A stretch of DNA of 24,411 nucleotides from a virus. The stretch is taken from IMG/VR virus record IMGVR_UViG_3300017964_000075, positions 1 to 24,411 of that record, one strand, 5' to 3'. Shown here in pieces: positions 1-13,501 of the stretch (positions are counted from its first letter, which is position 1; each line of letters begins with the position of its first letter). Position numbers and translations under genes: made by a program. Below the pieces are notes generated by a model that was not told the DNA's origin, ran no database searches, and saw only the letters and a program-made list of their open reading frames with translations.

Positions 1-2
1 CG

Positions 3-1541
3 GTAGATACCGGCACGGCTGGAACCATGGGCCCGGCGCACATGGCGGTAGACGGCGACTACATCTACGCCGTGGACCGTTCCGGATCGGTCCTCATGTA
101 CTCGCATGATGCGGGTGCCACATGGGGTTCAACGTCCACCGGTTCAAGTTACGTGTACGCTGATGTCCGCGTTGATCGTCTCACGCACGACGTTTATGTC
201 CTCGTTGATAATCCGTCTGTATTCTGGTTCAAGAGCACCGATCGTGGCGTGACGCTCAGTTCCGCGAACTCGACCGGAAAGTCCGTGTTCTACTCGGTTG
301 GTGCGATGACATCGGACGGAACAAACCTGTACTTCTACATGGCTGGCAGCGGAGCCAACCTTGAGCGAATCGATCTCGGCGGTGGCGCTGCTCTTACTCA
401 GACCGTGACTGCCTCATCTGATTCTCAAGGCCGTTCACTTGCGGCTGACAACTGCGGCAACGTCGTTTCAGGTCACAAAGATGGCGCTGACCTGTACTTC
501 CAGTACTCCACGGACTCTGGATCAACGTTCAGCGCTCAGGAACTGGTGGTCACTGCCGGTGATCGGGCGAACGCTTCAATCAACGAAACCAACGGCGACG
601 TCATGTTCTTGTATGAAAAAAGCGGCGACATCTTCCTTTCCACCTATGACGGTCTTCTTACCGGCGGCTCAAATTGCTACGTCGCTTCATTCTCGTTGAC
701 CGCGATTGAGTTTGATGCGGCTGGCGAGACGAATGACATTGTGATTGAGAACACCAGTGGTTCTGACATTACGGTGGACAGCATTTCGATCACTGGCACG
801 GATTTCACGATCTCAGAGGATTGTGGTGCGACAATTCCTGCTGGTGCTTCTTGTACGATTTCAGTGACTGGTGAGAATCAAGCGGACGAAACGTTGACGA
901 TTTCATTGAATGGTACGGCTCGTCAGGTGCCTGTGTCGATGGGCGCGATCGCTGAGTCAACCCCGGCCCCTTCTCCCGCCCCCGCCCCGTCTCCTTCACC
1001 TGCCCCCGCTCCCGCCCCATCTGAGCCAGCGGCTCCTCGAGTGCCAGGGCCTGTACCGCCATGGCCATGGGCGACTGTGATCGGCGATTCCGTATTGCTC
1101 GAGTGGGATGTTCCTTGGCAGGACGGTAACGGTCCGATCACCAACTACAGAGTTCGCAGTATCCCAGACGGCGGAACGTGCACAACTACAGAGCTTTCCT
1201 GCACAATCACAGGGCTCGCTCCCGGTGTCGAGTACACGTTCGCCGTATCGGCGCAGAACAGTGAAGGCTGGGGTCCCGAAGAGTTTAGTCAGGTTGCTGT
1301 CATGGTAGGCGAGACAACAGAAACTCTTCCAGAGACCCCTGTAACAGAGCCGGTACCAGCGCCGGAGACAGAAACACCACAGCCAGACGAGACAGTCTCT
1401 GCACCGACGCCTGAGGCCTCTGAGCCGGCAGTGGCGCCCACGCTGCCAGTAACTGGCGGTTCTCCTCTGGGATCAATCGCGCTGTATTCTGCGTTTGTTA
1501 TCGCTGGCGCTGCAACAGTGATCGCGACTAAGAGAAGATAA
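3..1541 (+). CDS. LPXTG cell-wall-anchored surface protein, Asp-box propeller + ASH-like + FnIII (5' partial)
   Basis: The frame is open to the left edge, so the true start and any signal peptide lie upstream; residues are numbered from the ATG at 27. Three Asp-box motifs (SxDxGxT-type: SHDAGATW 26-33, STDRGVTL 70-77, STDSGSTF 161-168) indicate a sialidase-like beta-propeller. An ASH/choice-of-anchor-D-like Ig domain follows (about 218-307), then a Pro/Ala/Ser linker (312-337), an FnIII domain (338-427) and a Pro/Glu/Thr linker. The C-terminus is a complete sortase signal: LPVTG at 473-477, a hydrophobic segment and the basic tail TKRR. Known: such a signal leads to covalent attachment to peptidoglycan by host sortase. 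Inferred: a host-expressed surface protein for superinfection exclusion, adhesion or glycan binding. No sialidase catalytic residues can be claimed. Domain architecture is confident; function is not. Confidence 0.85.
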   Translation, partial: VDTGTAGTMGPAHMAVDGDYIYAVDRSGSVLMYSHDAGATWGSTSTGSSYVYADVRVDRLTHDVYVLVDNPSVFWFKSTDRGVTLSSANSTGKSVFYSVGAMTSDGTNLYFYMAGSGANLERIDLGGGAALTQTVTASSDSQGRSLAADNCGNVVSGHKDGADLYFQYSTDSGSTFSAQELVVTAGDRANASINETNGDVMFLYEKSGDIFLSTYDGLLTGGSNCYVASFSLTAIEFDAAGETNDIVIENTSGSDITVDSISITGTDFTISEDCGATIPAGASCTISVTGENQADETLTISLNGTARQVPVSMGAIAESTPAPSPAPAPSPSPAPAPAPSEPAAPRVPGPVPPWPWATVIGDSVLLEWDVPWQDGNGPITNYRVRSIPDGGTCTTTELSCTITGLAPGVEYTFAVSAQNSEGWGPEEFSQVAVMVGETTETLPETPVTEPVPAPETETPQPDETVSAPTPEASEPAVAPTLPVTGGSPLGSIALYSAFVIAGAATVIATKRR

Positions 1542-1602: not shown

Positions 1603-2091
1603 ATGTCAAGCACAGACCAAGACCGACTAGTAGAAGAGTACGCCAAGCGTATTCAGCCGATTCTCGCTTCTGCGCAGAAAGCGTACGGAAGACGCGATCA
1701 GGATACACCTGCTCACGTGAACAGCAGACAGTACACGCAGCTTCTCGTTGAGTTTACTTCTAAGGGTGGAAGTCTTCAGCGTCTTGCTAGGCGTCTTAGT
1801 GTTTCGTACTCTGGCATGCGTCGTCGAGTAACTACGTCGGACGTTCCTCCTTTGAAGACCCCTCGAAAGAGCCAGGGACAGATTGAGTACTCAACTGTCT
1901 CGAGTGCCGCTGATCGCGTGCGTAACGCAAAGAGACAAGGCACTTCCGGATATCACGCGCAGCTCTACGAGGAGTTTAATAACGGTATCCCAATGAATCT
2001 GCTTGCTCGAGAGCTCGGGATTTCAAATGCTGCGCCCTTGTACTACGGAGTGCAGTCTCACTATAAGCGTTCTCTTCATTCTGCTTCATGA
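1603..2091 (+). CDS. Helix-turn-helix regulator with two HTH repeats
   Basis: 162 aa, basic and soluble. Two similar segments each look like a helix-turn-helix: around residues 45-76 (YTQLLVEF, then LQRLARRLSVSYSGMRRR) and around 118-150 (YHAQLYEEF, then MNLLARELGISNAAPLYYG). An internal duplication with both copies kept is likely. The start is the ATG just downstream of a -10 box with no ribosome binding site, as in leaderless actinobacterial genes. The palindrome in its promoter would suit autoregulation. It is translationally coupled to the next gene through an ATGA overlap. The protein family is not recognised beyond an HTH DNA-binding protein, and its target genes are unknown. Confidence 0.75.
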   Translation: MSSTDQDRLVEEYAKRIQPILASAQKAYGRRDQDTPAHVNSRQYTQLLVEFTSKGGSLQRLARRLSVSYSGMRRRVTTSDVPPLKTPRKSQGQIEYSTVSSAADRVRNAKRQGTSGYHAQLYEEFNNGIPMNLLARELGISNAAPLYYGVQSHYKRSLHSAS

Positions 2092-2258: not shown

Positions 2259-2468
2259 ATGCGACACGAACGCTCGCTGTACACAACCGTCTATGGTGCC
2301 GTGTATGACAGAATCAGCGACAAGTACCCAGCGGATAAGAAAGTTGTAGCTGCGAAAAAGATCACAGACACCCTGTGGGAGCTTTCATACGACTGCCACA
2401 GCACGCTTGAGTCTGTGTCAATTGAAGAAGACTTTTACACTATTGCTAGCGACGTGTTGAATCTTTAG
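2259..2468 (+). CDS. Small hypothetical protein (69 aa)
   Basis: The 69-aa product (starts MRHERSLYTTVYGAVYDR) begins 12 bp after the previous gene with only a weak purine-rich AAAGAGA upstream. It is mixed alpha/beta in character with no membrane segment or metal motif, and no family is recognised. Its last 23 bp overlap the 3' end of the convergent WhiB gene, so the two transcripts would be antisense to each other there. It closes the short plus-strand early-like operon with the HTH regulator. Confidence 0.55.
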   Translation: MRHERSLYTTVYGAVYDRISDKYPADKKVVAAKKITDTLWELSYDCHSTLESVSIEEDFYTIASDVLNL

Positions 2469-2781
2469 TCTTCTCGAGAAGCTTCTGCTCCTCAATCCCA
2501 AAGCGCCGATGAGGCTTGCTTTGTCGAATGTAGATCGCGTTTTGTCGCATGTACCCGGCTAGAAACCGATCGTCTTCGTTTTCTCCACCCCAGACACCGA
2601 TTTCAGCGTTCTCTCTCGCGTACTCACGACATGGTTCAATGACGGGGCATTGGCTGCATATTTGTTTTGCAATTGTCTCGCGCTTTACTTTAGAGCGAGG
2701 TACTTCTTTTTTCGATCCCTGAGAATAGAAGTACTCTGTCATGCCGCGACATGCGGCGTCATTTATCCATTCAAATGACAA
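2446..2781 (-). CDS. WhiB-family iron-sulfur transcription regulator
   Basis: 111 aa. The four cysteines of the WhiB fold are present: C11, C42, C45 and C51 (C-x2-C-x5-C for the last three), followed by the GVWGG turn at 62-66 and a basic C-terminal region (around QSKPHRRFG). Known: WhiB proteins bind a 4Fe-4S cluster, pair with the principal sigma factor, and occur only in Actinobacteria and their phages. Phage copies such as WhiB of mycobacteriophage TM4 alter host division and superinfection. The start is a TTG at 2781-2779, chosen because GGGGAG lies 6 bases upstream and the conserved sequence starts there. It is the last gene of the minus-strand operon, after a small membrane protein. 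Confidence 0.92.
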   Translation of the reverse strand: MSFEWINDAACRGMTEYFYSQGSKKEVPRSKVKRETIAKQICSQCPVIEPCREYARENAEIGVWGGENEDDRFLAGYMRQNAIYIRQSKPHRRFGIEEQKLLEKTKDSTRR

Positions 2782-3111: not shown

Positions 3112-5163
3112 TCAGGCGTTCTCCTTGACAAACTTGATTTCACACGAATCTGTTGTACAGTAGCTTTCACCAATTGCGTCTGCTGCCATTCCTCCGTACA
3201 CTCCCGTGAAGTCAATCGGGAACAGCGCCTTTGACGCCTCGAGATACTCGTTCTCGTCAATCTGCGTGTATGGCATCTGCGGATACACGAAGTTCCCCTG
3301 TGGGAGGAATGAGACGGTCTTGAGTTGTCCGTCATACATGTGAAGCACTGTTCCGATTTGGTCCTTTTCTTCTTCGGCGTCGAATGAAATTGTCACTGAC
3401 ACCGAGTTATCCGACCAGTATCTTTGAGCAGTCGACGCGAGAGACATCTTCTCGAAGATCGTGACGTCCTTCTCTGATCTCGTGGCATCTGATTTGATCG
3501 GAAAGAACACAACCGATGTCGTGTCTGGTGATTCTGACGCCGGCTCGACTCTGTAGTTCGCCATGCGAAACAGTGGGAGCATCGGATCGTCGTTTGAGAA
3601 GCGAATCGCTCTCAAGAAGAATTTGCCACCCGGCGTCCAGTGAACACCGGGTGACTCGCCGGCGAGAATTGACACAGTCCCAGACGGCTTAACAGTCGTT
3701 GTCTTAATCGACTCACGAACACCAAGCCATTCGGAATAGATGTTGTCGTAATTCTTCACCGTGGCGTATCCTTGGTCCATCCAGTCACGTAGAACTGGCA
3801 GACCATGCACGTCTGCGAAGTTTGCAACACCAGACATCGATGTTCCGATCCGTCTGTTTCGTTGCATGATTGCGTTTGTCTCCTCCCAGTGAGTCGGAAG
3901 AAGAGTAACGGTCTTAGCGTACAGGTACGCGAACTTGAGAGTGCGTCGGTAGTCCTCGAGTGACTCGTGACGGTTGAGATATGTCTCGACGAGCGTGCAC
4001 ATCTCGTATGACTCAAGTGACTGCTCGGCGCACGGATTGTAACCAGCGACCCTGTGATCCTTATTGTTCGGCGGGTCAATGAGACGCCCATACTTGCGGC
4101 TCATATCCAGCCAGATCACGCCAGGCTCGCCGTTCAGTGAGATGCCGTCTACAATACTTGACAGGTCTTCTCCAACGGACGTAGCGACGGAGTTGTTAGA
4201 CATCCAGCCCCAGCCTGGCGCCTTCGGATCATACGAGTTTCTTTCTGGATACACCTCAGAGTTCTTCAGGTTAAGGAAGTTCTCATCATCAAGTCGACCA
4301 AGAAGAAGCTCAGCAGAGCGACGAACGTTTCCAGAGACAACGCAAACTCCAATGAGATTTCCGATGTCGGCGATATCGGTCCGTGTTAGTGACTCTCCAT
4401 CACGACCGTCGAAGAGCTTACGAATATGATCGTGAAGCTTCTCGAGAGGCTGATGCCCAGCGGCTGTTCCACCGAACGTGCGAATTGGCTCGCCTGCGGG
4501 GCGAACGAGCGAGTAGTCAAACGTGATCGTGTTTTGATCAGCCTTGAGGTACGAGTTGAGCAGAAGCGTCATTGACTCGACCCAACCTTCACGAGTGTCT
4601 GGCACCTCGTACTCGTAGTAGTTGTCGCTTGGCTTGTAGATCGTGAATTCCTTGTCAGCGCCTAGGTCATCGAATCCGACGCCAACGCCGAGCATCGATG
4701 CCTCCATAAGAAACGCAAAAGGCTTCGCTGGATTGTTCTTGCTCATCTCAGCAGTCGAGACAAACGCGCAGTTCTGAAGCGCGGCCGAGTTACGATGCTC
4801 GTTGACAAGTGGCGTGCCCATGACCCAAAGCCCACGACCAGGTGGCGTCCACTTTAGATTGAAAAGACGATCGTACGCTTCCTTAGCACTTGCCTGCGCC
4901 TTGCTGTCGTTCCACGGCAGACGGTTTGTCTTGCAATGGTCTTTTTGAAGCGAGTACATCCCGTTGATGCAGCGTTCGCAGACGTCAGCCCATGTCTCCT
5001 TCGTGCCGTCTTCCTTAAGACGCGAATATGTGCGAAGGAATGTGATTTCTCCGACGGAATTTCCCGCGGCGTCGGTGTACCCAAACGGCGGCTTCTTATC
5101 TCTGTACTCAGCTACAAAGTCGTCAGAAAGATGAAAAGAGAGATAAGAAGACACAGCGATCAC
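3112..5163 (-). CDS. nrdJ: Adenosylcobalamin-dependent ribonucleotide reductase (class II)
   Basis: 683 aa, close to the length of monomeric B12-dependent ribonucleoside-triphosphate reductases such as the Lactobacillus leichmannii enzyme. It reduces ribonucleotides to deoxyribonucleotides through a thiyl radical made with coenzyme B12. Visible catalytic elements: C132 in LQNCAF and C389 form the substrate-side pair; the NPCAE loop at 376-380 carries the radical cysteine C378 and E380; FDYSLVRPAGEPI lies at 215-227; the phosphate-binding PSGTVSIL is at 493-500; the regenerating tail pair is C669/C674 (CTTDSC). All are intact, so the enzyme should be active without NrdB. The start is GTG at 5163 with no clear ribosome binding site, 29 bases after a TATAAT box; the GTG at codon 4 is an alternative. 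Confidence 0.95.
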   Translation of the reverse strand: MIAVSSYLSFHLSDDFVAEYRDKKPPFGYTDAAGNSVGEITFLRTYSRLKEDGTKETWADVCERCINGMYSLQKDHCKTNRLPWNDSKAQASAKEAYDRLFNLKWTPPGRGLWVMGTPLVNEHRNSAALQNCAFVSTAEMSKNNPAKPFAFLMEASMLGVGVGFDDLGADKEFTIYKPSDNYYEYEVPDTREGWVESMTLLLNSYLKADQNTITFDYSLVRPAGEPIRTFGGTAAGHQPLEKLHDHIRKLFDGRDGESLTRTDIADIGNLIGVCVVSGNVRRSAELLLGRLDDENFLNLKNSEVYPERNSYDPKAPGWGWMSNNSVATSVGEDLSSIVDGISLNGEPGVIWLDMSRKYGRLIDPPNNKDHRVAGYNPCAEQSLESYEMCTLVETYLNRHESLEDYRRTLKFAYLYAKTVTLLPTHWEETNAIMQRNRRIGTSMSGVANFADVHGLPVLRDWMDQGYATVKNYDNIYSEWLGVRESIKTTTVKPSGTVSILAGESPGVHWTPGGKFFLRAIRFSNDDPMLPLFRMANYRVEPASESPDTTSVVFFPIKSDATRSEKDVTIFEKMSLASTAQRYWSDNSVSVTISFDAEEEKDQIGTVLHMYDGQLKTVSFLPQGNFVYPQMPYTQIDENEYLEASKALFPIDFTGVYGGMAADAIGESYCTTDSCEIKFVKENA

Positions 5164-5217: not shown

Positions 5218-5460
5218 CTAAGACAGAAAAAGCGTCTTGTAGAGCTCGGCGCATCTCGGGCAGATCGGAAAGTTGTCGGGATCCCTGGACGGTACCCAGA
5301 TCTTTCCACAGAGCGCTACAATCGGAAGACCATTCACAAGTGCTTCTGTGATTTGATCCTTCTGAGCGTAGTGCGCGAACTTATCGTGGTCGCCCTCTTC
5401 GTATTCGTATTCAACAATAGGGACGCTCTCTAATTCGACTTCTAGTTCTACTTCTGACAT
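5218..5460 (-). CDS. DUF3039 family small zinc-ribbon-like protein
   Basis: 80 aa from the ATG at 5460. The region GDHDKFAHYA ... ALCGKIWVPSRDP ... FPICPRCAELY matches the DUF3039 proteins found across Actinobacteria, whose function is unknown. H30, C51, C67 and C70 could bind zinc (H, then C, then CPRC). An acidic N-terminus (EVELEVELESVP) precedes it. A longer frame from 5529 exists, but its first 23 codons are an Arg-rich out-of-family stretch inside the glycosylase gene, so the internal ATG is preferred. It overlaps the end of the glycosylase gene by 13 bp, which suggests coupled translation. Confidence 0.85.
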   Translation of the reverse strand: MSEVELEVELESVPIVEYEYEEGDHDKFAHYAQKDQITEALVNGLPIVALCGKIWVPSRDPDNFPICPRCAELYKTLFLS

Positions 5461-6248
5461 GTCGAACACCAGTACAGTTTGCGGCCGTCTACGTCGCCGA
5501 TTTGCACCTCGCTGGAGCAGACCCTGCACGGTAGCCCATGTCTTTTGTAGACGTAAGAGTATTGAGTGTACTTAGAATCTGAAAGCTCTTCGTTGCTCAG
5601 ATGATTGACGTGCACGGTGCGAATCATCCCGTCTGTCGCTCCGTCTCCCATCAGCACTGATGCTCTTTCCCAGATGTTTTCAATCGTCTTCTCCGGCACA
5701 TCGCATCCTCGAGTCTCTGGATTCAGATTCTCAAGAAAGAGAAGCTCGGCTCGGTAGACGTTTCCGATGCCAGCGATGATCGACTGATTCATTAATAGTG
5801 ACGCGATGCTTTTCTTGCTCGAGCGGATCTTATCGACAACCGCCTGAGACATCGGCTCGTCGTGAAGTGGATCGTCTCCAAGCTTTGCAGTTTTCTCCAA
5901 CATCTGCTCCGTTGTCAGATACTCGCATTTCGTCGGGCCAACGAGCTCTGATACAAAGATTTCGTTTTCTAAGCGAAGTCTCGCAGACGGTCGCGGCTGC
6001 CCGCCTCGGTTTCTACGAATGTTGAACCACCCGTAGAGGCCGAGGTGAATGTGAACAATCTCGTCACGTTCTTCGAAGTGGAAGAACAGGTGCTTGCCGT
6101 GCGTCGTAGTACCGAGAAGTGTTCTTCCGTTGATGGACGCCGCGCCGTCTGCGAATCTGCCTTGCGGGCTCGTCGCTACCACCGGCAGTCCTTGAAAACA
6201 GTTTTCATGGACGTTGGCGAAATAGCGAATCGAGTGTCCCTCCGGCAT
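5448..6248 (-). CDS. Fpg/Nei-family DNA glycosylase / AP lyase
   Basis: 266 aa. It starts MPEGH, the catalytic N-terminus of endonuclease VIII (Nei): Pro2 is the nucleophile and Glu3 the acid. K52 in HGKHLF is the conserved lysine. The helix-two-turn-helix DNA-binding segment is at about 152-170 (MNQSIIAGIGNVYRAELL). A C4 zinc finger closes the protein with C241, C244, C261 and C264. Known: these enzymes excise oxidised pyrimidines and nick the abasic site. All key residues are present and the length is normal, so it is likely functional. It is the first gene of the minus-strand operon, with a TATAGT box 7 bases before the ATG, which suggests a leaderless mRNA. The Nei rather than Fpg assignment follows from MPEGH. 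Confidence 0.94.
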   Translation of the reverse strand: MPEGHSIRYFANVHENCFQGLPVVATSPQGRFADGAASINGRTLLGTTTHGKHLFFHFEERDEIVHIHLGLYGWFNIRRNRGGQPRPSARLRLENEIFVSELVGPTKCEYLTTEQMLEKTAKLGDDPLHDEPMSQAVVDKIRSSKKSIASLLMNQSIIAGIGNVYRAELLFLENLNPETRGCDVPEKTIENIWERASVLMGDGATDGMIRTVHVNHLSNEELSDSKYTQYSYVYKRHGLPCRVCSSEVQIGDVDGRKLYWCSTCQK

Positions 6249-6390: not shown

Positions 6391-6392
6391 AT
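6387..6392 (+). promoter_or_regulatory. -10 promoter element for lysis operon
   Basis: A perfect TATAAT, with no convincing -35 (ATGACA at 6366-6371, spacer 15). Transcription would start near 6399. The ATG at 6391 lies inside this box, so it cannot serve as the start for this transcript. The operon start is the ATG at 6430. Confidence 0.55.
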
Positions 6393-6429
6393 GATATTTA
6401 GAGCTCTACGTCTGAGAGGTGACGCCCAC

Positions 6430-6666
6430 ATGGACAACTATAAAGACAAAACCATGTACATCCTTGCAATTGGCGTGATGTTGGCGATTCTTGTCGCCAT
6501 CGTTGGAGATTACGCAGTTGCCGCGATCGAGACTCAAACAACCGAAGAAGCTGTTGAGGTTTCATCGGACGTTATGACGCTTGTTCAAACCGCCCTAGGT
6601 GGCGTCATTGGTATCCTCGGAGGATACTTTGGTGCTAAGGGCTCGTCTAAGAAAGAAGAAGAGTGA
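6430..6666 (+). CDS. Holin candidate, two transmembrane segments
   Basis: 78 aa. TM1 is about residues 8-29 (around MYILAIGVMLAILVAIVGDY) and TM2 about 47-66 (around LVQTALGGVIGILGGYFGA). An acidic periplasm-side loop (ETQTTEEAVEVSSD) lies between them and a charged Ser/Lys/Glu tail ends the protein. This layout and its position directly before the endolysin gene (TGATG overlap) fit a two-TM holin. The ATG at 6430 was chosen over 6391 because GAGAGGTGA precedes it at normal spacing and the upstream ATG lies in the promoter. Known: holins time lysis by opening the membrane. A role other than holin cannot be excluded. Confidence 0.72.
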   Translation: MDNYKDKTMYILAIGVMLAILVAIVGDYAVAAIETQTTEEAVEVSSDVMTLVQTALGGVIGILGGYFGAKGSSKKEEE

Positions 6667-7697
6667 TGGCCCGCCCATACACAGGATTTGACGTAATTGC
6701 CGGTGGAAAGCGCGCTGGCATGGAGACACTTCTTAGTCTCTTAAGCGCGCACTTTGGTCTTTGGAATAACGGCAGTTTTGGTGTTCGTAAGAAGAGAGGC
6801 AAGTCCTCGTATTCAGTGCATGCGACTGGCCGCGCGGCCGATCTTTCTTGGAGAGGTGCTCCGTATCGCGGGCCCGGCAACTACGAGGCCGCCTGTAAGA
6901 TGATGGACTTTGTTGTCGCCCACGCCGATGCTCTTCACATCGAGGCGGTGTTTGACTACTACCCAGCGCCCCACGGCCGCGGATGGAAGTGTGACCGTGC
7001 CGCGTGGCAGGTCTATGACAAGCCCGCGTTCAGCGGCGCTCCTGGCGGCGACTGGGTGCACATTGAAATCTCGAATGACAAGGCAGATGACCCGGCCTAT
7101 TACACTGAGATCATGCGGCAGCTTCTCGGCGAGCCACCTGTTGCTGTAAAGCCCGCCCCGGCGGCTAAGACACGTAAGGCGCCTCCCGGCAAGAAGCCGT
7201 GGCTCCAGGTTGGATCAAAGGGCAACGAGGTTAAGGCCATGCAGAAGATCGTTGGCGCTGAGCCAGTCGATGGTAGCTTCGGGGCGAAGACTGAGGCGAA
7301 GGTCAAGGAGTGGCAGGCCGAGCACGATCAACACGTTGACGGTATCTGGGGTCCCGGTTCTGACAAGCACGCTAAGAATTGCACCTGCAAGCCCGCTGAC
7401 GCAAAGGCCGAAGACGCTACTCCCTCGGAGGTCACGACCAAGAAGGCTGCTACTAAGCCCGCTAAGAAGCCCGCGGCTACTGCCACAAAGGCCTCTCGAC
7501 CATACCCGGGCGCCCCAATTCGCAAAGGCTCAACTGGTCCGAACGTGAAACTTGTTCAAGGAGTTGTTGGCACAGAGCTCGTCGACGGTCAGTTCGGTAG
7601 CAAGACGCTCGCGGCTGTTAAGAAATGGCAGAGCGAAAACGGGCAGTTGGCTGACGGAATCGTTGGTCCCAAGACTTGGGCGGCGATGTTCGGCTGA
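6666..7697 (+). CDS. Endolysin: M15-like peptidase with two peptidoglycan-binding domains
   Basis: 343 aa from the ATG at 6666, which overlaps the holin stop (TGATG); a GTG one codon earlier is possible. The N-terminal domain carries an M15/VanY-type zinc motif, H52 to D59 (HATGRAAD), and H132 in DWVHIEIS. A D-Ala/L-Ala-linked peptide bond of peptidoglycan is the likely target. A Lys/Pro/Ala linker follows (about 157-178), then peptidoglycan-binding domain 1 (about 179-235), a second Lys/Ala/Thr-rich linker, and binding domain 2 (285-343, ending ADGIVGPKTWAAMFG). There is no signal peptide, so export would need the holin next door. The exact bond cut is not established from sequence. Confidence 0.88.
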   Translation: MARPYTGFDVIAGGKRAGMETLLSLLSAHFGLWNNGSFGVRKKRGKSSYSVHATGRAADLSWRGAPYRGPGNYEAACKMMDFVVAHADALHIEAVFDYYPAPHGRGWKCDRAAWQVYDKPAFSGAPGGDWVHIEISNDKADDPAYYTEIMRQLLGEPPVAVKPAPAAKTRKAPPGKKPWLQVGSKGNEVKAMQKIVGAEPVDGSFGAKTEAKVKEWQAEHDQHVDGIWGPGSDKHAKNCTCKPADAKAEDATPSEVTTKKAATKPAKKPAATATKASRPYPGAPIRKGSTGPNVKLVQGVVGTELVDGQFGSKTLAAVKKWQSENGQLADGIVGPKTWAAMFG

Positions 7698-7735
7698 CGC
7701 CAGCATCTTCTCTCCACAAAGATAAAGGTGCAGCC

Positions 7736-7936
7736 ATGGAAGCAGTTATTGTAGCCTTAATAACAGTGGTTGGTGGAGTTCTTGTAGCTCTCATTCAAAA
7801 GACAAGAAATGAAAATACAAGAGATCACGCCATTGTAGCAAAGTCTTTGGATAGAATAGAAGACAAGATCGACCATCACATAGTTGATCATGCGACAGGT
7901 AAGTTCTCCTCAAAAGGAAAAGAAAAGGCAACCTGA
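7736..7936 (+). CDS. Small single-TM membrane protein
   Basis: 66 aa from the ATG at 7736, with AAAGGTG about 6 bases upstream. A longer frame from 7676 is an extension into the lysin 3' end and is not preferred. One N-terminal membrane segment (around VIVALITVVGGVLVALIQ, residues 4-21) is followed by a charged, probably helical part (RNENTRDHAIVAKSLDRIEDKID). Type I topology, small size and position after the endolysin suggest an accessory holin, antiholin or spanin-like lysis protein, but no family is recognised with certainty. Confidence 0.65.
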   Translation: MEAVIVALITVVGGVLVALIQKTRNENTRDHAIVAKSLDRIEDKIDHHIVDHATGKFSSKGKEKAT

Positions 7937-10084: not shown

Positions 10085-10810
10085 GTGACTTCCATGAAAG
10101 ATAAGGACCTCGCTTTACTATACGCTCGGGTCTCAACCAGCATCCAGGCGTCAGACGGTATCTCATTGGACGCGCAAGAGCGTGATCTTGTTCGAGCAGC
10201 GGAACTTGCCGGGTTCACACGATATGAGATCCTCCGCGAAGAGGGTCGCTCAGGCAAGTCGATCTCCGGCCGGCCGGTTTTGAAAGAAGCTCTAGAGCGA
10301 CTTGACGCTGGCACCGCCGGCGCACTCTTTGTCACTAGAATTGACAGACTTGCTCGATCAACAAAGGACTTTCTCAGCATAATCGACAGAGCCAGTAAAT
10401 TTGACTGGAGAGTAGTTCTTCTCGACCTCAACCTTGACACGTCTACGTACCAGGGACGTTTTGTCGTCACGATAATGAGCGCGCTAGCAGAAATGGAACG
10501 CGCGATCATCGCCGAGCGCCAGAAGGACGTTCATCGTGATCGACGAGAGAAAGGTATCGTCTGGGGTGTTGACAAAGGTCCAAAGCGAATTATCTCAGAT
10601 AGCACGCTTGAAACAATCGACCAACTTCGATCTACTGGCATGTCGTATCATAAGATTGCACAGAAGCTCAACACAGACGGTGTAGAAACTCCGTTTGAAA
10701 AGACCTGGCACGCATCATCTGTACGCCGAGCTTATCTTCTTGAAGAAAAAATATCGGGGCCGGGAGAGCTGCCCGTCAGCCAAGAGCAGCTCAATCCCGA
10801 CCCCGAATGA
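10085..10810 (+). CDS. Small serine recombinase (resolvase/invertase family)
   Basis: 241 aa. The catalytic domain has R15 and nucleophile S17 in YARVST, and the TRIDRLARS motif with R85 and R88. The long helix follows (IMSALAEMERAIIAERQ). After it, residues 180-217 (LRSTGMSYHKIAQKLN and TWHASSVRR) look like the helix-turn-helix start of the large serine integrase Recombinase domain, but the zinc-ribbon and coiled-coil parts are missing. It is therefore longer than a resolvase and much shorter than a 450+ aa integrase. Possible jobs are genome resolution, inversion of a fibre segment, or integration with a partner. GTG at 10085 or ATG at 10094 could be the start. It faces the primase gene convergently. 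Confidence 0.88.
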   Translation: MTSMKDKDLALLYARVSTSIQASDGISLDAQERDLVRAAELAGFTRYEILREEGRSGKSISGRPVLKEALERLDAGTAGALFVTRIDRLARSTKDFLSIIDRASKFDWRVVLLDLNLDTSTYQGRFVVTIMSALAEMERAIIAERQKDVHRDRREKGIVWGVDKGPKRIISDSTLETIDQLRSTGMSYHKIAQKLNTDGVETPFEKTWHASSVRRAYLLEEKISGPGELPVSQEQLNPDPE

Positions 10811-10879: not shown

Positions 10880-13501
10880 TTATCTCGCGAATCTTGTAGC
10901 AACGGACCAATCAACCTCAGTCGAGGCGACCGTTCGTGGCATTAGCATCATTCCAAGAATCTCGGCTCTAGAACCGAAGCCGTTGATCTCGATCCCACGC
11001 TCTGACAACTTACGTTGAAACGCGATCTGAGTCATCGGCTTCTCGCCTCGTTCCTCACTCCAGACTCGGTAAATTGCGTACAGCGACTTAATTGGCACTG
11101 AACCGCCTTCGGTCTCCTTAGTCTCTTCAAGGAGAAAGAATCCGATACGATCTTCGTTCTTGCGGTAGATGTCAGCAGCTTCTGTGACAGCCTTACACCA
11201 ACCAAGAGAGTCTCTTGCGCTCGACCCAAGAAGTTTGATCGCGCCTTCAACAGCCCACGACAGCACAGCCGGCAGCGCGCCTTCTGGGTCGAAGATGTAG
11301 TGCTTCAAATCAGGGTCCGGGTTCTCAGGGACTTTTGTCAGAGGCACTGGTCTGATGCGTCTCCACATCGCGTCATCGGTGATGACTGGTCTGTGGTTTG
11401 TAGTGACCCAAAGCTTTGCACGCGACTGGAACGTGAATGGCTTTTCTCCAGGAGAGCGAGCCGAGATCTCAGAAGAACCGGTGAGCTTCTTGACTGAGTT
11501 TTCTTTCATTCTCTCAGTTTCAGGGAGCTCGTCAACCCAAACAAGACGACGACCGCGAAGCTCTGCCCAGTGATACAGATCTGATCCGTGCGCCTGTCCG
11601 TCACCCTGCGCAAGAATGCTCGAGTCAAGTGGCCACGCGTATTGTGACGTTCCCATCGCTTTCACAAGCGCTTCGACAAGAGTGTTCTTACCAGAGCCTG
11701 GAGGTCCGTACACTAAGAACATGATGTCGTGAGTACGAAGACCTGTCAACGAGTATCCGGCAGCTTTTTGCAACCACTCTTGAAGTTCCTTGTCGCCGCC
11801 TGTAGCAAAGTCAAGGAATTGCTCCCAGCGAATATTCCGAATCCCCGGGTTGTACGCAACTGGCGCACGTCTCGTGATGTAGAGATCTGGTCGACCGCGA
11901 AGAAGCTCGCCCGTTCTCAGGTCGATGACACCGTTCGCTACTCCAAGAAGAGTTTCGTCACTGTCCCATGACTCGACTGGGATGAGAATTCTTGGGTCGG
12001 AGTTGGCGCTTTCAATCGCGCCGCTGATACGAGCGTTTGACTTTGCCTGTTGCGCCCAGCGAATTACCTCAGACTGTTTGTCAGCATCGTCGAGGTAGTG
12101 CGTCACCTCGCTAGCGATGATCGGCGCAAGCTTCTTAGACAGCTCGCGCATCTCAAGATTTTCTGCGTCTGGCTTCCAGTATCCGCCGTCCCAGTGGAAC
12201 CAGCCTAGTCCCGGAGTGTACCGAATAGCAGCACCAAACGAATCCACGAGACGTCGTCCATTGCCAGTATCTGAGAGGGTACGCTTTCCAGGCTCCCCGC
12301 CTTCCCCTGCCCCAAGCGCGTCAGGGTCTTGTGGTACGTCGATATTTGAGATGCTAGACGCGTCGGCAATCGAATCGCCGTCTTTAATGGCACTGTATAC
12401 ACTGCCAGAGATAGTGCCAGGTAGATGTACGTCATCAGCAGAGGGAGCACTCGAGCTTTTCTGCGTTGCCGATTCTTTCTTATCTCCAACGCTCGCACGA
12501 CTCTCCTCCTGCGATTTATTTGCCCATTCCTGTAGACCCGGCCAAAGCTTTTCAGTCTTAGGGTTGTTGACAACAAAATCAATAGCGCGACGCACGTGCA
12601 TAAGAAGTCCGCCGGAGCCCTCGAGCTCAAGTGGTGGCCGCACCTTCTCTGCGTTGAAACGAATCATCATTGTTTCAACAGCCAAACGACCGGCTTCAGT
12701 ATTTACTGGAAACTTGTTCGCAAGAGCGCACGCCATAGCGTAGATATCTACAGCGCGCGATCCTTCGTCGATACCTTCGTCAAGAAGGCGATCAACATCT
12801 ACTCTCTCACCGGCAAACTCTAGCCCGTCAAGAAAACCCCACTCGCCCTCAGCAAGTGCTGTCTCCAATCTCTTCGACCTCTTGCGAAGAGATGCAAGTA
12901 GTTCTTCAGGCGCCTCTGCTATTTCAATTTCCCATGGAGCCTTGCCCGGCGCCCAGTCGTAGCACACTCCAGAGAAGTGACGAGACGGTGCGATAAGCAC
13001 ATAGCCATTGTGCTTGATATCAATTCCACCAAGCCCAGACTTTTTTAGATTGCCAACAAGTCCTTCGGACTGATCGCACTTGTAGAAGAGATGTCGGCCA
13101 CGAACTGAGCGCCCGTTCATAGAGTACTCGCCAGTGATCGCCTCTACCGTCGGAGGAAGCGCTCCATCGACCAGAGCTTCAAACTTCTCAAACGAGTCAG
13201 GTCCACCAGAGCGAGGGTCGATGTCGATAACAAAGAAACCGCTTGGCTTGCAAAAGACGCTGACGTTATTCTGCGGTGACTTTGTCCACCACTCGTCTAC
13301 TATGGAGACGTCGCTCGTCGCATGAAGATTCCACTCCGGAATGCTCGGATGCTTTCCGACGTCTTTTGGCTCAGGGTGTGTGCCGCCGCACGTGCATCGG
13401 CCGTTGTCAATGCCATAGCATGGCATGACGTGCCAACCCTGCGCGGCGTACCACGAGGCTGCCGGCCCAAGACGGCCCTCTGCGTCTGCCCACGTGCTCA
13501 C
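10880..13501 (-). CDS. Bifunctional PrimPol primase-polymerase / SF3 (D5-like) helicase
   Basis: 873 aa. The N-terminal PrimPol domain (about 10-210) has the metal-binding VIDIDPRSGG (D93, D95) and GRHLFYK (H137). A Cys cluster near the start (CYG ... CTCGG) may bind zinc. A low-complexity Ser/Asp/Gly-rich linker (about 325-410) leads to the D5-N region and an SF3 helicase: Walker A GPPGSGKNT (599-607), Walker B LVWVDELP (653-660), sensor LWVTTNHRP (697-705) and arginine motif RRIRP (714-718). Known: such fusions prime and unwind DNA at plasmid or phage origins. The start is GTG at 13501, where homology-like sequence begins, with no clear ribosome binding site. The upstream TATAGT at 13615-13610 would leave a 100-base leader. 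It is convergent with the recombinase. Confidence 0.93.
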   Translation of the reverse strand: MSTWADAEGRLGPAASWYAAQGWHVMPCYGIDNGRCTCGGTHPEPKDVGKHPSIPEWNLHATSDVSIVDEWWTKSPQNNVSVFCKPSGFFVIDIDPRSGGPDSFEKFEALVDGALPPTVEAITGEYSMNGRSVRGRHLFYKCDQSEGLVGNLKKSGLGGIDIKHNGYVLIAPSRHFSGVCYDWAPGKAPWEIEIAEAPEELLASLRKRSKRLETALAEGEWGFLDGLEFAGERVDVDRLLDEGIDEGSRAVDIYAMACALANKFPVNTEAGRLAVETMMIRFNAEKVRPPLELEGSGGLLMHVRRAIDFVVNNPKTEKLWPGLQEWANKSQEESRASVGDKKESATQKSSSAPSADDVHLPGTISGSVYSAIKDGDSIADASSISNIDVPQDPDALGAGEGGEPGKRTLSDTGNGRRLVDSFGAAIRYTPGLGWFHWDGGYWKPDAENLEMRELSKKLAPIIASEVTHYLDDADKQSEVIRWAQQAKSNARISGAIESANSDPRILIPVESWDSDETLLGVANGVIDLRTGELLRGRPDLYITRRAPVAYNPGIRNIRWEQFLDFATGGDKELQEWLQKAAGYSLTGLRTHDIMFLVYGPPGSGKNTLVEALVKAMGTSQYAWPLDSSILAQGDGQAHGSDLYHWAELRGRRLVWVDELPETERMKENSVKKLTGSSEISARSPGEKPFTFQSRAKLWVTTNHRPVITDDAMWRRIRPVPLTKVPENPDPDLKHYIFDPEGALPAVLSWAVEGAIKLLGSSARDSLGWCKAVTEAADIYRKNEDRIGFFLLEETKETEGGSVPIKSLYAIYRVWSEERGEKPMTQIAFQRKLSERGIEINGFGSRAEILGMMLMPRTVASTEVDWSVATRFAR

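Follow-up and report, generated by a model that had tools for sequence, protein, structure and literature searches.

The DNA analyzed here, a 24,411-nt stretch of an IMG/VR virus record (hereafter the window), begins inside a gene whose product ends in a sortase sorting signal. Does a phage place its own protein on the wall of the infected cell, or does the window start in bacterial DNA flanking a prophage? The first-pass annotation, made from the sequence alone, leaned toward the former and proposed looking for a signal peptide upstream and for a sortase in the likely host. The roles that it put forward, namely superinfection block, altered adhesion and glycan binding, are treated here as hypotheses.

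Domain architecture and sorting signal of the window protein

The open reading frame at 3..1541 (+) proved real, but position 3, taken at first pass as the beginning of the gene, is the window edge and not the true start. The frame is open at the left edge, 512 aa are visible, and neither start codon nor signal peptide of this 5′-truncated copy is visible inside the window. The beginning is preserved in a sister copy from another phage lineage (L005), whose 114-nt overlap with the window contains one mismatch: a plain signal peptide, MKKILSALAALAIPLSILPMTQNPVKA, leads into Asp-box blades. Joined with this copy for motif counting, the protein comprises ~649 aa.

The N-terminal part of the visible protein (3..680, +) is a β-propeller-like region of 44-aa blades, recognized by a motif scan and its period. 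Strict Asp-boxes are located at nt 102-125, 234-257 and 507-530 (+), corresponding to ORF residues 34, 78 and 169; addition of the upstream part from L005 raises the number to five (residues 83, 127, 171, 215 and 306), which recur with the 44-residue period as in BNR/Asp-box propellers. Our reading of the repeat frame suggests a propeller of ~seven blades. The BNR/Asp-box profile matched weakly (E 0.0012, below the curated cut-off), and a PDB search with the N-terminal part retrieved sialidases at E about 0.008. No sialidase family of Pfam or NCBIfam scored above cut-off for the window protein, in which no clear FRIP motif was found by reading. The propeller is followed by an ASH/choice-of-anchor-D-like Ig domain (717..887, +; E 0.012 for ASH and 5e-5 for choice-of-anchor D, both below curated cut-offs), and a Pro/Ala/Ser-rich linker read from the sequence (957..1037, +) connects this to a fibronectin type III domain (1083..1280, +). 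The FnIII assignment of the first-pass annotation is firm (PF00041 E 6e-15, above cut-off; FnIII chains in the PDB search), while its labels 'Asp-box' and 'ASH-like', though reasonable, are less secure, resting on sub-cut-off scores that agree with the repeat pattern. A Pro/Glu/Thr-rich, probably wall-spanning linker (1302..1442, +) leads to the C-terminus.

The C-terminus carries the complete sorting signal noted at first pass. An LPVTG sortase motif (1443..1457, +; LPVTGG in the sequence) is located 32 residues from the end, within the 25-45 residues expected for LPXTG proteins, and, as in such proteins, is followed by a hydrophobic helix (1470..1526, +; Kyte-Doolittle maximum 1.99) and a basic TKRR tail (1527..1538, +), the protein ending in ATKRR. 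The AlphaFold model of the window protein contains, at low confidence, a helix at residues 492-509. A strict sorting signal was present in four of the 6777 ORFs of at least 80 aa from 15 related phage records longer than 100 kb, whereas residue shuffling gave an expectation of 0.5; 4 of the 15 records had such a signal.

Phage origin of the window and copies of the gene in other phages

Judged from its sequence, the window is phage DNA throughout. Positions 376-24411 correspond to 1-24048 of a 109,822-base phage contig (G002) at 99.85% identity, contigs from other metagenomes (G001 and G004) match at 99.84%, and the agreement of the three contigs, which come from separate metagenomes, runs from the gene into phage DNA. 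G002 carries terL (84% identical to that of DSL-LC01), portal (73%), tape measure, tail and pol I (82%) genes. DSL-LC01 (Actinomycetia phage, OQ999401.1) is a complete circular genome, assembled from a metagenome and described as lysogenic (PMC10611076), and is syntenic with the window: in both, a 162-aa HTH-like protein (1603..2091, +; 53% identity), a WhiB-like regulator, which is an actinophage marker (2446..2781, −), a 79-aa protein, a ribonucleotide reductase (3112..5163, −; 82% identity), a 103-aa protein and an Fpg/Nei DNA glycosylase (5448..6248, −) are encoded in the same order. The window continues with a lysis cassette (6391..7936, +) encoding a 91-aa holin-like protein (6391-6666), a PG-binding endolysin (6663-7697) and an 86-aa TM protein (7676-7936). 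Relatives of this holin-like protein and endolysin are present in another phage contig, G003. For the 241-aa serine recombinase (10085-10810) and the primase/helicase (10880-13501) of the window, no counterpart was found in DSL-LC01.

Homologues of the window protein were found on virus contigs only, with neither a bacterial flank nor an integrated copy, and 60 bacterial genomes of the candidate host family yielded matches to FnIII domains only and no full-length homologue. Host DNA beside a prophage, which the first-pass annotation had considered for the window start, was not seen; this explanation, or that of a chimeric contig, could appeal to the window beginning within the gene and to every contig with the gene breaking inside it. 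Such breaks also fit a near-identical gene common to several phages, and we infer that they occur because near-identical copies reside in different phages. Together with homologues in other phages and the concordance of three independent contigs into phage DNA, this makes a host flank or a chimera highly improbable.

No single contig contains the full-length gene, as all carrier contigs end inside it. In L005, a capsid gene and a gene for a large secreted Thr-rich/FnIII protein (companion protein) are located just upstream of the LPVTG gene. The idea derived from L005 that the gene adjoins the major capsid gene of the window phage itself was rejected, as G002 carries a capsid module of the DSL-LC01 type. 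The L005 capsid protein lacks a homologue in G002, and L005 therefore represents a second phage lineage sharing the LPVTG gene. The third copy resides in G003, a phage of 39% GC in which the LPVTG gene has 53% GC. This copy keeps LPVTGG, while it has diverged in the Pro/Glu/Thr-rich linker, with linker and tail only 41% identical to those of the window copy. Over 235 codons of the folded region, window and G003 copies differ with dN 0.069 and dS 1.53 (dN/dS 0.045), and the ASH-like domain (residues 226-318) is 97.8% identical at the aa level with a dN/dS of 0.013. A dN/dS of about 0.05 indicates strong purifying selection on the folded domains, and by this comparison domains and sorting motif are maintained as the remaining tail changes. 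The differing G003 tail may stem from recombination rather than divergence.

Several further features of these contigs were observed. The endolysin, holin-like and LPVTG genes of G003 (27431-28653 and 35546-36490) have 50-53% GC within the 39% GC phage and look like imported cassettes; a single tRNA-Ser was found, in G003 only. Assembly break points lie at window 1-1100 and at L005 2785-3690, L005-lineage contigs often ending in the companion gene. Surface genes as break points fit sharing between phages or strain diversity. L255 and L258 likewise encode serine recombinases upstream of the HTH gene. G002 carries, flanked by portal and capsid-module genes, a single 5188-aa ORF (80977-96543, −; locus L015) whose domains include an RNase_T exonuclease, a UvrD helicase and NUDIX, and the equivalent place in DSL-LC01 is occupied by a 9870-nt 'hypothetical' gene (WJZ48510.1).

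A slot for surface proteins and a second LPXTG family

The 162-aa HTH gene marks a slot for surface proteins. In DSL-LC01, it lies directly downstream of the gene for WJZ48438.1, a 'hypothetical protein' that is large, exported and Thr/Pro-rich like the window protein and is likewise followed by the WhiB, reductase and Nei genes; it differs in its outer domains, which are unrelated, and in a membrane-anchoring C-terminus of another kind without LPXTG. We surveyed 65 phage loci retrieved from the HTH gene and examined the gene just upstream in 54, which collapsed to 35 distinct proteins at 90% identity. In these DSL-LC01-like phages, 29 of the 35 were at least 400 aa long and Thr/Pro-rich with a signal-peptide-like start as scored by a simple hydropathy rule rather than a trained predictor, whereas only 19 of 416 control ORFs from related phage records, all of this minimum length, passed the same test. 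Some of the slot proteins carry SUEL-lectin, PA14 or FnIII domains. None of the 54 upstream proteins contained LPXTG, their ends being other hydrophobic or basic tails. The window phage thus appears, by sequence comparison, to fill the large-exported-protein slot of its group with a sortase-anchored version.

Other C-termini recur among these proteins. L252, L261, L264 and similar slot proteins share NVGADMTxxxRKxAQxxxVxAVIVxQVIAGTSALxxARK, possibly another surface-anchoring signal. The companion secreted Thr-rich/FnIII proteins (L005 2724-4742, L030 11439-13493, L027 2681-4450 and others) have in common a C-terminal domain, FEEEVNIFEGGFDEYVPADSTVPVKTRRV..., that occurs in at least a dozen phages, precedes either a basic tail or TM helices, and has no curated Pfam match.

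A second LPXTG family, unrelated to the window protein, is encoded by large aquatic actinophages (G008, G017, G027, G028, G029 and L027). Its members consist of a signal peptide, an unrelated outer domain, a Big_1-like Ig domain and a Thr/Pro stalk, and end in LPVTG, LPETG, LPSTG or LPQAG signals. In most of these phages, the neighbors of the gene encode an endolysin, a holin-like protein and a companion surface protein, and some of the genes adjoin a capsid gene. This family had no match in 60 genomes, in a search that had no positive control and shows little. Among 50,697 phage records, neither the window protein (P0001) nor the second family found a match, and only the companion protein matched DSL-LC01. 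AlphaFold predictions were poor (mean pLDDT 43 for P0001 and 52 for the second family), and fold searches with both were uninformative except for Ig-like folds.

No sortase was detected in the window or in 29 related phage records (30 in all). The first-pass annotation had turned to the likely host for this enzyme, and 145 of 149 genomes of the candidate order do encode one; the host is itself a guess, as the order is that of a single actinobacterial MAG whose related phage contig is possibly mis-binned. This MAG encodes a sortase, and none of its proteins emerged as a convincing LPXTG substrate from a narrow pattern scan. Actinobacterial class E sortases favor LAXTG, so the processing of LPVTG by the true host is a prediction.

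Proposed role of the putatively wall-anchored protein

The protein is very likely phage-encoded and built for the cell surface. To this extent the first-pass view that the phage displays its own sortase-anchored protein held, given the 110 kb contig, the synteny with a circular phage, three phage backgrounds, the second LPXTG family and the L005 signal peptide; display itself, along with export, anchoring, timing, ligand and role, we infer as follows. A large DSL-LC01-like actinophage would encode the protein, which the infected (or lysogenic) actinobacterium would export via Sec. The C-terminal LPVTG signal would halt it in the membrane, where a host sortase would cleave after Thr and join it to peptidoglycan. 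Beyond the wall, the Asp-box propeller would be presented on the Pro-rich stalk with the FnIII and ASH-like Ig domains and would probably serve as the head that binds a ligand or glycan. These steps, from export and retention in the membrane to sortase transfer and propeller display, are proposed because they constitute the established pathway of LPXTG proteins. With the surface of the infected cell thus covered or altered, further phages, and later the phage's own progeny, would fail to adsorb to the cell or its debris.

Receptor masking, or superinfection exclusion, is our tentative choice of role, preferred because the locus is conserved and diverse and contains glycan-binding folds. The lectin and PA14 domains of other slot occupants lend indirect support to glycan binding. 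The working analogy is Llp of phage T5, a small outer-membrane lipoprotein that acts on FhuA in superinfection exclusion (PMC9586334). Both would be phage-encoded exported proteins at the surface of the infected cell, and by analogy the window protein may block re-adsorption to infected cells and lysed fragments; Llp is a small lipoprotein, whereas the window protein is predicted to be large, wall-anchored and multidomain. Overall, we assign a probability of about 0.6 to a wall-anchored surface protein of a DSL-LC01-like actinophage whose most likely role is masking.

Lysogenic conversion and a lysis-linked role are close rivals of masking. In the former, the protein on the surface of lysogens would benefit the host by promoting adhesion or deterring grazers, much as staphylococci benefit from SasX, the LPXTG protein of a phiSPbeta-like prophage in S. 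aureus ST239, which is prophage-encoded and cell-wall-anchored (PMC10232760). Like SasX, the window protein is phage-encoded and, as predicted from its sequence, exported and wall-anchored via the host sortase, and its domains are adhesin-like; the published description of DSL-LC01 as lysogenic and the serine recombinase of the window point the same way. SasX, however, sits in the chromosomally integrated prophage of a Firmicute, whereas the window belongs to a large aquatic actinophage whose gene was found on virus contigs only. To our knowledge, SasX lacks an Asp-box/ASH/FnIII build. We regard lysogenic conversion as possible though somewhat doubtful: neither an integrated copy nor flanking host DNA turned up, the short recombinase resembles resolvases and invertases, and LPXTG genes elsewhere adjoin capsid, endolysin and holin-like genes rather than an integrase.

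In the lysis-linked reading, the protein would be anchored late, and the wall fragments set free by the endolysin would carry it, either to act as decoys or to contribute to lysis itself. LPXTG genes adjoin endolysin and small TM (holin-like) genes in G008, G017, G027, G029 and L027, and the corresponding three genes of G003 share a GC content of 0.50-0.53 within a phage of 0.39. In the window, however, ~5 kb and an opposite-strand block separate the gene from the lysis cassette, and the slot neighbor in DSL-LC01-like phages is the HTH protein; this reading, which also overlaps masking, seems unlikely as it stands. Still less probable is a tail or head fiber whose FnIII domain and propeller bind the host and whose LPVTG segment is a mere membrane helix. 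Phage tail proteins often contain Ig/FnIII domains, the FnIII part of the window protein is matched by PHROG 6977 'minor tail protein', and sister genes adjoin a capsid gene in some phages, but a signal peptide and a complete sorting signal, kept in diverged copies, are a misfit with cytoplasmic virion assembly, and the tail genes of DSL-LC01-like phages are separate.

Wall-anchored proteins of phage origin are familiar chiefly from prophages of Firmicutes, where they act as virulence factors (SasX, for example), and our search of the literature outside most subscription journals turned up no description of LPXTG proteins from aquatic actinophages. Our analysis indicates that large aquatic actinophages repeatedly carry such proteins, on several unrelated backbones and with no sortase of their own in the phage records examined. 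We consider it conceivable, if short of an even chance, that these phages widely carry a 'surface display' locus of large, fast-changing, exported glycan-binding proteins, whose anchors (LPXTG sorting signals, TM hairpins, and other hydrophobic or basic ends) are swapped between phages, and that host sortases are recruited so that progeny are not lost on the cell. Should these proteins coat the infected cell, the surface of abundant aquatic bacteria would be remodeled by their phages via the host sortase, and superinfection exclusion, cell aggregation or grazing resistance in aquatic communities would have an explanation that can be tested.
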